Assembly (NCBI GenBank): GCA_003646505.1
Contig: QMKT01000004.1
Span: forward strand, 1-22,636
DNA length: 22,636 nucleotides
Source: Campylobacterota bacterium
Lineage (GTDB): Bacteria > Campylobacterota > Campylobacteria > Campylobacterales > Sulfurovaceae
Reading direction: 5' to 3'
Part shown: piece by piece, positions 9,622 to 22,636 of the stretch
Layout: every line of letters begins with the position of its first letter
Numbering within the stretch: position 1 is the stretch's first letter
Position numbers and translations under genes: made by a program
The notes under the pieces: model-generated
What the model was told of the DNA's origin: nothing
Databases searched by the model: none
What the model saw: the letters and a program-made list of their open reading frames with translations, nothing else

Positions 9622-9676
9622 TGTAGGGGTGAACCCCTGTGTTCACCCTGGTCAGACACAGGGGTCTGACCCTACA
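9622..9676. repeat. REPIN-like palindromic doublet, copy 1 (nadA-nadC gap)
   Basis: Two inverted 26-nt units separated by one base. Left unit: GTAG (9623-9626), stem GGGTGAA (9627-9633), loop CCCCTGTG (9634-9641), stem TTCACCC (9642-9648). Right unit, read on the minus strand: GTAG, GGTCAGA, the same loop CCCCTGTG, TCTGACC (9675 back to 9650). Each unit folds as a perfect 7-bp hairpin, the two loops are complementary to each other, and the outer ends pair as TGTAGGG with CCCTACA. It starts 4 nt after the nadA stop codon and ends just before the nadC ribosome site, so in RNA it sits between two cistrons. The GTAG head followed by a hairpin, in inverted pairs, is the known layout of REP/REPIN elements mobilised by RAYT transposases. 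No RAYT gene is in the window. Confidence 0.88.
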
Positions 9677-19745: not shown

Positions 19746-21260
19746 CTATCTAAAACGCTCCACCATATCTTTAAGTACTTTTTTATCTATTTGTACAGAT
19801 TTGTCACCATTTTTACGGGCATATAGTTTTCGTACCATCTCTTCAACAGCCGTATCTTCACTCATATGTGCATAGAGTATTTTCAGTGCCTCTGATTCTT
19901 TGTATGGATTTTTTCCAACTGACTTAAATTTTGGCAGAAAGCCTAACAAATACATCACTATCATACCTGAGATAAAAGCCAAAGCCAACATCCACCATGA
20001 TACAGACTTCACCTCTACTTCTTTTTCAACGATGACTTCTTTCGTCTGTACAGGCTGAGGCATTTTGGTTTGCACTATGCCTTTTGTATTTTCGGTATGC
20101 GCTGAAACAGCTGTACTTTTTGATGCTTTGATCTTAATATCATAACGCTTTACATCAAGTGATTTTATCGTTTTATCTTCAAGTGTCAACATAGAAAAAC
20201 TTTTAGCAGGAATAGTAAAATCTGTGTCTGAAATAAATGCAAAAGTTTTACTGTAAATACTATGCAGCGCTCCATCGATAATATTGGTGTCCACTTTGGC
20301 TTCATCACTATAGACTGTCACACCATCTATTTCATATTTTGGAAATTCAAAATTTTCCAGATTTCCCTTACCTTCTATTTTGATGGTAAGATTCACTGGT
20401 TTATTTGATTTTACCTCTTGGGTATCTATGGTTGTATTGACTGTAAATATACCAACAAGATCACTCTCTTGGGCTTGAGGTAGAACTTCTATATCAAGAG
20501 AATTTGATGCCGTTTGATGCCATTTTGTACCAAAGGTCATCCCAAAAATATCTCTTCTACTACGATCTGGAACCCCTACTTTTGCCCGAGCAGGAGTAAT
20601 TGTAATGTTTCCTTCTTTTTGTGCTGTGAGTATATATCGTACTTCCTGTACTTGATAATTACCTTTCATATAGGCATTTTTCTCACCCACATCCACAGCG
20701 GTAAAGCCTGGGAATGTAGGTTTGGTATACTGCACCTCCTGTGAAAGTCTTACACCATTTTTCAATGAAAAATAGACTGTCACCATAAAAGACTCGCCCA
20801 TCATCACTTTTGTTTTATTCGCTTTCATTTGTAGAGAAAACAAAGAGTTTTTCTGTGCTGTTGGGGCAGAAGATTTCACCACTTTTATACCTATAGGATC
20901 TGTTTTATACTCTGCCCCGCCGATAGTCACGGTATAGGAAGGTATGGTCATATCTTGTTCTGGTACAAACTGTATCAACTGTGTGGTTATCTTTTCACTT
21001 TTAAAAGTGCCATTCATCATAGTATAGTTTTGGCTGCTGCTTGTAGATCTTCCTACAACAGGAGCATCTGCTACCATGAGTATCTTAGGGAAAGTAGCTG
21101 ACCCGCCTGTCGCTTTCAAACGTAACTGTACAGGATTGCCTTTAACCACTTCCACTGTATTGACCATGGCTCTTACACTTGCTCCATACGAAAAAGTTAA
21201 CAACATACTCAAAATAATAAATAAAAATTTATGCACACTTCTACTACCAAGGTTTCGCAT
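19746..21260 (-). CDS. batD: BatD-like (oxygen-tolerance family) membrane-anchored protein
   Basis: The product has about 504 residues. It starts with a signal peptide (SVHKFLFIILSMLLTFSYGASVRA). A periplasmic region of several beta domains typical of BatD follows, for example VNTVEVVKGNPVQLRLKATG, NKTKVMMGESFMVTVYFSLKNG, PVNLTIKIEGKGNLENFEFPKYE and FTIPAKSFSML. One transmembrane helix (SWWMLALAFISGMIVMYLLGF) and a short cytoplasmic tail end it. I chose the ATG at 21258-21260 because AAAGGAG lies 5 nt upstream; ten more in-frame codons to 21290 have no such support. It overlaps the end of the batC-like gene by 17 nt. Bat proteins form a MoxR/VWA-linked envelope complex implicated in stress tolerance in other bacteria; the mechanism is not established. 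Confidence 0.85.
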   Translation of the reverse strand: MRNLGSRSVHKFLFIILSMLLTFSYGASVRAMVNTVEVVKGNPVQLRLKATGGSATFPKILMVADAPVVGRSTSSSQNYTMMNGTFKSEKITTQLIQFVPEQDMTIPSYTVTIGGAEYKTDPIGIKVVKSSAPTAQKNSLFSLQMKANKTKVMMGESFMVTVYFSLKNGVRLSQEVQYTKPTFPGFTAVDVGEKNAYMKGNYQVQEVRYILTAQKEGNITITPARAKVGVPDRSRRDIFGMTFGTKWHQTASNSLDIEVLPQAQESDLVGIFTVNTTIDTQEVKSNKPVNLTIKIEGKGNLENFEFPKYEIDGVTVYSDEAKVDTNIIDGALHSIYSKTFAFISDTDFTIPAKSFSMLTLEDKTIKSLDVKRYDIKIKASKSTAVSAHTENTKGIVQTKMPQPVQTKEVIVEKEVEVKSVSWWMLALAFISGMIVMYLLGFLPKFKSVGKNPYKESEALKILYAHMSEDTAVEEMVRKLYARKNGDKSVQIDKKVLKDMVERFR

Positions 21261-22155
21261 CTTCACTCCTTTGACCTTTTTTACTTTCACCCATCTGATA
21301 CATCATCGTAGGTGTCTTGCCTTTTTGCATCTTTTTCATAAGACGTTTTAGCTCTTGTTCTTTCAACTTATCTTCTTTACTTTGTTTCTTTTGTTCTTGA
21401 GGCTTAGAGGAATCTTTGTCGCCCTTTTCATCTTTAGACTTTTTGTCTTTCTCTTTTTTTGCATCTTTTTTATCTTTTTCGCCCTTTTTGTTCTTCTCGT
21501 CTTTTTTCTTTTGGTCCTCTTTGTCTTTTTGGTCTTTCTTTTTTTGATCTTGTTTTTTCTTTTCGTCTTGATCTTTCTTATCTTTTTGATCCTGATCTTT
21601 TTTGTCGTCTTTCTTTTTATCTTTCTTTTTATCTTTTTTATCTTGATCTTTCTGATCTTGTTTCTTTTTCTCTTCTTCTTTTTTCTTCTGTCTTTTTGCC
21701 AATTCTAGGTTAAATTTTGTATCTTCGTCTTCTTTGATCTTTAACGCTTTTTCATAAGACGCTATGGCTTTATTGAGCTCTTGTTTTTGAAACTGACTGT
21801 TCCCGATGTTATGTAACCTTTGGCTCTCGTCGACACCTTCCGCTTTTTCATATGCTTCCAGTGCTTCATCATATTTTTTATCTTTATAGAGTGCATTTCC
21901 TATGTCATACTGTTTTTGAGGACTCTTTGCCTCTAAACTGTTGAGCAATGTTGCACTTTTAGCATACTCTTTTGCTTTATAAGCCTGATTGGCTTCTTCT
22001 ATGGTTTTAAAATCTGTCAATCCAGCTGAAGATTGAGTACAAAAAAATATGAAATAAATAAAAAATATTTGTAACCATTTGATCTTGTAGTGGTCAACCC
22101 CTGTGTTGACCATTGGGCAGACACGGGGGTCTGCCACTACCAAAGCCTTTTTCAT
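21244..22155 (-). CDS. batC: BatC-like TPR protein with Lys/Asp/Gln-rich tail; start region interrupted by REPIN
   Basis: The 303-residue frame starts at an ATG overlapping the batB stop (ATGA), with AAGGAG 6 nt upstream, so this start is well supported. Residues 6-23 are encoded entirely by the palindromic element at 22087-22140. Next comes a signal-type hydrophobic stretch (KIKWLQIFFIYFIFF, cleavage likely after CTQSSA). About three TPR repeats follow (residues 52-145), including YDIGNALYKDKKYDEALEAY and HNIGNSQFQKQELNKAIASY. A low-complexity Lys/Asp/Gln/Glu tract covers residues 156-262, before a basic C-terminus. In Bat operons this position is held by TPR protein BatC, thought to scaffold the complex. 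An internal ATG at 22111-22113, formed inside the element, could give a shorter product but has no ribosome site. Confidence 0.82.
   Translation of the reverse strand: MKKALVVADPRVCPMVNTGVDHYKIKWLQIFFIYFIFFCTQSSAGLTDFKTIEEANQAYKAKEYAKSATLLNSLEAKSPQKQYDIGNALYKDKKYDEALEAYEKAEGVDESQRLHNIGNSQFQKQELNKAIASYEKALKIKEDEDTKFNLELAKRQKKKEEEKKKQDQKDQDKKDKKKDKKKDDKKDQDQKDKKDQDEKKKQDQKKKDQKDKEDQKKKDEKNKKGEKDKKDAKKEKDKKSKDEKGDKDSSKPQEQKKQSKEDKLKEQELKRLMKKMQKGKTPTMMYQMGESKKGQRSEDAKPW
21370..21690 (-). repeat. Low-complexity Lys/Asp/Gln coding tract in batC-like gene
   Basis: About 107 codons (residues 156-262) consist almost only of Lys, Asp, Gln and Glu, with short imperfect KKDQKDQDKKDKK-like repeats. The DNA is nearly pure A/G on the coding strand. 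The tract is probably disordered or a charged helix, and is prone to length change by slippage. Confidence 0.85.
22087..22140. repeat. REPIN-like palindromic doublet, copy 2 (inside batC-like coding sequence)
   Basis: This has the same design as the copy at 9623-9675 but with different stems. Left unit: GTAG, TGGTCAA, loop CCCCTGTG, TTGACCA (22087-22112). Spacer TT. Right unit, read on the minus strand: GTAG, TGGCAGA, loop CCCCCGTG, TCTGCCC (22140 back to 22115), where only the first stem pair is mismatched. It is 54 nt long, one base more than copy 1, and contributes exactly 18 stop-free codons to the batC-like frame between codon 5 and the hydrophobic signal segment. Confidence 0.88.
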
Positions 22156-22636
22156 ATCTCTCTCCTTCTCGGCAATGAACCAAACGATATCAGTAAAAAT
22201 AACAATCCAAGTCCTAAAGGATAATAGAAAAACTCTACACGTTCTTTCACTGTCACTTCCCCTTGCTGTTGGTTTTTGTATTTACCTCGAATGACTGAGA
22301 CCAGTTGTTTAATATCTGCATCTCCATTTCCCGCTACCACATAAGCACCACCATTTTCTTTGGCTACTTCACCTAAAGCATCATTTCTCTGTGAAATGGC
22401 TATGGTACCGTCTTTTTGTGTAAACGGTTTTCCATTTTCATCGATGACTGGTGCACCTTTATCTGTACCTACAAGTACCACATATAGGTCTATCTCATTG
22501 GCTTTAAGTATTTCTGAAAATCCTGCTATGGCTTCTTCATCTCCACCATCGGTAAAGAGTAAAACAATTTTTGGTTTTTTCTTTTCCAGTAAAGATGCTG
22601 TCAATTCACCCAACGCTGAAAAATCAGTAGAACCCA
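22152..22636 (-). CDS. batB: BatB-like VWA-domain membrane protein, C-terminal part (cut by window edge)
   Basis: The frame is open to the right edge, beginning GSTDFSALGELTASLL. It contains the second half of a von Willebrand A domain: the Thr region of the metal site (GSTDF) and the strand IVLLFTDGGDEEAIAGF, whose TDG holds the MIDAS aspartate. EIDLYVVLVGTDKGAPV and the BatA/BatB-typical region AISQRNDALGEVAKENGGAYVVA follow. A C-terminal transmembrane helix (FFYYPLGLGLLFLLISFGSLP) ends in a basic tail. It overlaps the batC-like start by 4 nt (ATGA). BatA or another BatB-type VWA protein is the alternative; the downstream TPR and BatD genes favour BatB. The N-terminal membrane segment and the DxSxS half of the metal site lie outside the window. 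Confidence 0.85.
   Translation of the reverse strand, partial: GSTDFSALGELTASLLEKKKPKIVLLFTDGGDEEAIAGFSEILKANEIDLYVVLVGTDKGAPVIDENGKPFTQKDGTIAISQRNDALGEVAKENGGAYVVAGNGDADIKQLVSVIRGKYKNQQQGEVTVKERVEFFYYPLGLGLLFLLISFGSLPRRREI

Follow-up and report, generated by a model that had tools for sequence, protein, structure and literature searches.

The stretch of DNA analysed here (the window, 22,636 nucleotides in all) carries at positions 22087 to 22140 a REPIN, two GTAG-tagged REP hairpins placed head to head, inside a batC-like gene. A survey of this gene across the genus Sulfurovum revealed that different REP families have recurrently settled at the same spot of its signal region. In-frame intragenic GTAG-REP dimers as such are already known (Di Nocera et al. 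2013, PMC3733652). What is new is their recurrence: we found no description, in the open-licence literature searched, of different REP families repeatedly colonising the signal region of one gene within one genus.

Read directly on the plus strand, the element consists of GTAGTGGTCAACCCCTGTGTTGACCA, TT and GGGCAGACACGGGGGTCTGCCACTAC, giving 26 + 2 + 26 = 54 nt (Table 1). GTAG stands at both of its outer ends on opposite strands, and the stems of 8 and 7 pairs fall within the 5–13 bp of the GTAG-REP superfamily. Two inverted REPs separated by a short spacer, which as a single strand make up one hairpin, constitute the structure of a REPIN. With up to 3 mismatches allowed, both hairpin patterns have two occurrences in the window, where chance predicts 0.00 and 0.01. 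The start ATG of batC lies at 22155–22153 on the minus strand, and codons 6–23 coincide exactly with 22140–22087. The original prediction, a palindrome set in frame into the n-region of the batC signal peptide as residues 6–23, was thus accurate to the codon. Its further proposal of a source of coding sequence agrees with the 18 in-frame codons, since the whole element lies within a conserved ORF and contains no stop. The in-frame internal ATG and the 53-nt intergenic copy with a one-base spacer were likewise recovered as described. The names batB and batC are presumed from gene order, family matches being confined to BatD and TPR; the signal sequence was called by eye from a basic start, a hydrophobic stretch and SSA preceding a conserved GLTDF.

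Table 1. Coordinates of the batC-like gene, its neighbours and the REP elements in the window.
Feature	Position	Strand	Remarks
batC-like gene	21244..22155	-	303 aa; signal region, TPR, Lys/Asp-rich tail
batB-like gene, 3' part	22152..22634	-	named from gene order; fragment without family match
batD-like gene	19746..21290	-	PF13584 BatD
Ribosome-binding site of batC	22162..22167	-	AAGGAG
ATGA overlap	22152..22155	-	batB stop (TGA) / batC start
KIKW and hydrophobic stretch	22036..22086	-	51 nt after the element
GTAG-REP dimer (REPIN)	22087..22140	-	head to head, 54 nt; batC codons 6-23
REP unit 1	22087..22112	+	GTAG tag and TGGTCAAC / CCCTGT / GTTGACCA hairpin, 8 pairs
Spacer between REP units	22113..22114	n/a	2 nt
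REP unit 2	22115..22140	-	GTAG tag and hairpin, 7 pairs
In-frame internal ATG	22111..22113	-	codon 15; straddles the spacer; no Shine-Dalgarno-like sequence just upstream
Intergenic second copy, same REP family	9623..9675	n/a	53 nt; 26 + 1 + 26, 1-nt spacer

The family is dispersed. In the window genome (G000; 1.46 Mb, 142 contigs, 80% complete), the 26-nt REP consensus was found at 33 places (up to 3 mismatches) versus 4 for the reversed pattern. These REPs share their loop variants with REPs surrounding a RAYT-like gene of G066, the nearest relative compared; the REPs there are of the same types as in the window genome. The protein of this gene scored 63.4 bits (2e-17) against NCBIfam REP_Tyr_transpos, below the cut-off of 80, and 32.8 bits against Pfam Y1_Tnp, above the cut-off of 23. 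Searching it against 78 genomes of the genus returned 19 rows, equal to 17 distinct places in 14 genomes; GTAGGGG-type REPs flanked or lay inside the gene in 15 of the 17 stretches fetched at these places, which form one clade. In other bacteria, RAYT proteins have been shown experimentally to cleave single-stranded REP DNA, with GTAG being needed (PMC8266576). The window genome, at 80% completeness, returned no match to a RAYT of the G066-type clade at E <= 1e-15, and this counts against an explanation by RAYT. It has three Y1_Tnp matches, one of which (L028) is flanked by a pair of a different GTAG palindrome; no palindrome pair was found around the two others.

The RAYT-like genes themselves carry REPs. 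An in-frame GTAG-REP lies in the coding sequence of 11 of the 17 RAYT-like ORFs; the one in L300 precedes the likely start, and L305 and L311 seem to be fragments of a single gene. Of the resulting 16 genes, about 9 (L295, L297, L298, L305/L311, L306, L307, L308, L309 and L310) hold it in the loop behind the HUH motif, and L306, L307 and L310 have an additional GTAG-REP pair near the N-terminus. REPs overlapping the ends of RAYT genes have been described (PMC3733652); a REP internal to a RAYT gene was not found in the portion of that paper available to us.

To what extent the insertion is shared was seen by comparing orthologues. The first 160 residues of the batC product had matches in 77 of the 78 genomes, and one batC per genome was retained for 70 of them, 8 being excluded for lack of a match or for a weak or fragmentary one. 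Ten named records matched BatC, namely nine metagenome assemblies of Sulfurovum and one assembly of Campylobacterota. The window's element is present in 2 of the 70 orthologues, G000 and G008 (probably Sulfurovum sp. NORP77). A different GTAG-REP dimer of about 55 nt occupies the same place in three (G003, G032 and G041), and neither dimer is found in the other 65. In this comparison, which the original prediction had proposed, G066, the nearest compared relative, is among those without the element. The unit in G003 and G032 is GTAGGGTCGGTTTACCGACC or close to it. That of G041, which we grouped with them by look, is divergent, with 5–6 differences per unit from their consensus, and may represent a third REP family. 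Allowing up to 3 mismatches, the G003/G032 unit has 194 places in G003, 185 in G032 and 19 in G041, versus 1, 0 and 0 for reversed controls; in 5 of the 20 loci fetched for G003 and G032 a copy lies inside an ORF of at least 100 aa, each time near the ORF end. In all five batC dimers, which begin after codon 5 or 6, the reading phase is GTA-G or GCA-G. Among 22 metagenomic proteins, two (P0002 and P0008, known as proteins only) contain the translation of a G003/G032-type dimer, beginning at residue 5 or 6. When the 70 batC leaders were searched by script for tagged hairpins, G+C-rich pairs turned up in the five dimer-bearing genomes only, and single A+T-rich, chance-like matches in four others. 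The original prediction named unrelated sequence of equal length in relatives as evidence against an insertion. Leaders are shorter than 38 residues in 61 of the 70 orthologues; among the nine of 38–45 residues, five are the REP carriers and only four (L114, L119, L129 and L130) are unrelated.

Insertion in frame is not peculiar to batC. We examined 30 of the 33 REP places in G000 and 30 of 45 in G008, and found in-frame copies in batC, priA, dnaX and hisH of the former and in batC, priA, dnaX, folC and hypF of the latter; the further copies lie at ORF ends or outside ORFs. Searches for dnaX and priA covered 14 of the 78 genomes. Both copies are present in G000, G008 and G066, and were not seen in nine other aligned genomes for dnaX and six for priA. 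Both sit in variable linkers, that of priA between the 3'BD and DEAD domains. The priA stems of G008 differ in sequence from those of G000 and G066, yet all 8 of 8 pairs are kept in each of the six units, which may reflect either an exchange of units or maintenance of structure.

These copies also bear on element length. The original prediction held that a 53-nt copy would break the frame, which fails as a rule: a 53-nt dimer is in frame in dnaX of three genomes. The loci of G000 and G008 contain ten compact dimers, seven of 54 nt and three of 53 nt, by a scan pattern that missed at least the window's 53-nt intergenic copy. Those in genes comprise batC twice and folC at 54 nt and dnaX twice at 53 nt, and elsewhere there are four of 54 nt and one of 53 nt. 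A bias toward 54 nt within genes, which had been suggested for survey, is not visible in numbers this small. The frame would be kept by selection on the net change, rather than by an element length divisible by three.

The anatomy, frame, family, orthologous copy, recurrence and REP–RAYT neighbourhood in the genus are observed directly, whereas transposition by a RAYT, export of the product and tolerance of the insert are inferred. In the reading that we consider probable, a REPIN, a type of element mobilised by RAYT (REP-associated tyrosine) transposases, entered the loosely constrained n-region of the batC signal sequence in frame. It would contribute 18 residues to the protein, placed between the basic start and the hydrophobic stretch, and would have been retained because the n-region tolerates a different length and sequence provided that frame, start, charge and hydrophobic core are preserved. 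An n-region makes few sequence demands, which would explain why different elements collect at the same few codons. Selection would restrict surviving insertions to a narrow interval, after codon 4 to 6, and unrelated repeat families would be repeatedly found there for this reason. An inserted REPIN that has survived would then drift. Two observations count against tolerance in its plain form. The priA stems that stay paired despite changed sequence are not what plain neutral decay would give, and a block around the batC element is more conserved between G000 and G008 than the surrounding genes.

This block bears on the history of the insertion. G000 and G008 share 52 of the 54 bases of the element, and both differences alter a residue. 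The element and the next 51 nt (22036–22140 versus L062) are identical at 100 of 105 bases (95%), in flanking genes of about 80% identity. With block limits set after inspecting the alignment, third positions agree at 33 of 35 within it versus 168 of 286 in the compared rest of batC and batB (Fisher p = 1.0e-5). Recombination that passed the element with about 51 nt between the two lineages would account for this pattern, and we give it an even chance against one insertion followed by loss in G066. G066 is closer to G000 than G008 is, with base identities in batC, dnaX and priA of 88.8, 91.4 and 85.5% versus 80.5, 80.4 and 79.1%, yet its batC has a 7-nt-repeat signal region in place of the element. 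The G008 batC copy has G000-type loops, unlike most other clear REPs listed for G008, although another G008 dimer (C39) has similar ones. A weakly resolved BatC tree (73 rows) pairs G008 with P0002, which carries the other REP family, with support 98/88, but it is built on 116 columns only. In this tree the window's family requires 2 changes, both forced by well-supported branches, and the other group requires 5, of which such branches force 3; each may be a gain or a loss. Constraint on structure or signal could also produce the conserved block, so that descent with loss, recombination and constraint are all possible. An exact empty site was not alignable for the batC element because the n-regions vary too much.

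A larger mobile unit of element plus 51 nt was considered and rejected. A 126-nt probe matched 16 of the 78 genomes, with at most 11 candidates per genome scored. Outside G000 it matched near its full length only in G008 (probe positions 3–125), at batC, and no dispersed full copy appeared among the scored matches. The others lay mostly on the REP dimer, some reaching up to position 81, and that of G054 covered positions 64–95 only.

Repeats of another type occur in the same signal region. Tandem 7-nt repeats encode the hydrophobic core of BatC (FTIHYSLFT, LISHFSFFT) in L063, L065, L072, L073, L074, L078, L087, L109, L114, L130 and others. A period of 7 with shuffle p <= 0.01 was detected in 27 of 70 batC start regions, one of them in a REP carrier, versus 0 of 70 control stretches. 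By one filter, there are 15 strong arrays in 13 of the 70 batC regions (8.8 kb) versus 18 in the remaining loci fetched, which span 0.68 Mb with overlaps and about 0.49 Mb without redundancy; a few of the batC arrays precede the start, and the genomes are related, so that these counts are not independent. In G003, in-frame 7-nt arrays in dnaX (L200, SIQHSAFSVQK) and priA (L227, VQRSAFSVQ) lie in the linkers that hold REPINs in G000, G008 and G066. Lipoprotein-like N-termini outside batC (L138 and L256) also contain stretches encoded by 7-nt repeats (LLITHYSLLILAVLLLTSC, MKKLFTIHYSLFTLIALLLVSC). Tentatively, the batC signal region might be a site of recurrent exchange, where REPINs of at least two families and 7-nt arrays would serve as interchangeable coding modules before a conserved mature protein, in part through recombination between species. 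As the same repeat types occur in DnaX and PriA linkers, and REPINs in the HUH loop of RAYT-like proteins, the family may be adapted to reading frames. This wider view strikes us as possible rather than probable.

The hairpin could instead be kept for use, tuning translation of batC and the genes downstream or the stability of the mRNA. The element starts 15 nt after the first base of a gene translationally coupled through the ATGA overlap, and the RNA of the 60-nt stretch 22084–22143 folds strongly (-32.2 kcal/mol, z = -4.6, equalled by 0 of 200 shuffles). Start-region z values of the five REP carriers range from -2.3 to -7.2. Conservation of the 105-nt block and the priA stems that remain paired though both sides changed are also in keeping with use. 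The outermost bases of REP unit 2 pair in G008 but not in the window copy, and this same difference completes the outer pairing of the long hairpin in G000. Against these points, the window's element is missing from 68 of 70 orthologues, G066 has another leader, and start regions of the 70 orthologues fold no better than a control stretch (mean z -0.22 versus -0.63). Values of z under -2 were obtained for 7 of 70 start regions, five of them in REP carriers, versus 10 of 70 control stretches. These data led us to reject RNA structure as a general trait of batC starts in the genus, and the same fold test gave no support to a hairpin between 7-nt arrays flanking the ribosome site. A translational role of the element, such as the reduced batC and batD translation suggested in the original prediction, is possible but unsupported and not general in the genus, and we regard retention of the hairpin for use as unlikely.

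The start of batC had been taken as fixed by the ATGA overlap and the ribosome site, and this held up. In-frame ATG, GTG or TTG codons among the first 60 are ATG1, TTG5, GTG7, ATG15 and TTG46; TTG46 lies beyond the hydrophobic stretch, and the rarer ATA/ATT at codons 30, 33 and 36 lie within it. None of the three start codons occurs in frame between the element and the end of the hydrophobic stretch. Because the candidates are thus codons 1, 5, 7 and 15 and then 46, any exported BatC begun at ATG, GTG or TTG carries the second half of the element or more, and translation starting downstream of it would require another start codon or the loss of the signal. That batC is annotated from the wrong start, with the element in its leader, is highly improbable. 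A warning has been given that misannotated starts may place many N-terminal REPs outside genes (Di Nocera et al. 2013, PMC3733652), but here AAGGAG and the overlap belong to codon 1, no comparable site stands immediately before codon 15, and any start later than codon 15 forfeits the signal sequence.

These results offer a comparative case for small mobile palindromes feeding new residues into conserved proteins, resting on the following: 1) two species with the element; 2) the nearest compared one without it; and 3) different REP families at one site. With a signal region that is easy to assay and a start codon hardly in doubt, batC also provides a clean test of whether an insertion is tolerated or used.

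Several known systems invite comparison. REPINs and their RAYTs share with our element two inverted REPs, a short spacer, a non-autonomous nature and a link to RAYT; a REPIN copy entering a gene is modelled there as destroying it (PMC8049555), unlike the in-frame batC case. A passage search of PMC6006769 yielded nothing on intragenic REPs, and a term search of PMC3116915 had no hits. Rickettsia palindromic elements (RPE) likewise lie in frame in conserved genes, and an RPE-bearing Gmk product was shown to be active (PMC2229807). The likeness proposed by the original prediction, with a different sequence family, proved apt. The original RPE type measures 105–146 bp and has another sequence, and the 54-nt element is GTAG-tagged, without the CGTC tag of the group of R. 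conorii REPs among which RPE-4 and RPE-6 are counted (PMC3733652). The Yersinia element YPAL/RU-2 also lies in a predicted signal peptide (YPO1552), but is a 168-bp MITE presumed to have given rise to a new gene (Delihas, PMC2229807), in contrast to batC, a conserved gene whose mature part is kept and whose n-region is changed. Closest are the GTAG-REP dimers of Di Nocera et al. (2013, PMC3733652), in-frame intragenic insertions that add 20–30 residues, some N-terminal and many in replication or repair genes. In that study, Sulfurovum sp. NBC37-1 is described as having GTAG and CGTC repeats, and different REPs are noted at about the same recB site in two Xanthomonas species. Our element resembles those dimers in its GTAG tag, stems (6–13 bp there), head-to-head order and insertion in frame; it differs from them in lying in a signal sequence behind a start fixed by gene overlap and, in the present genus-wide survey, in having two or three REP families at the same batC codons.
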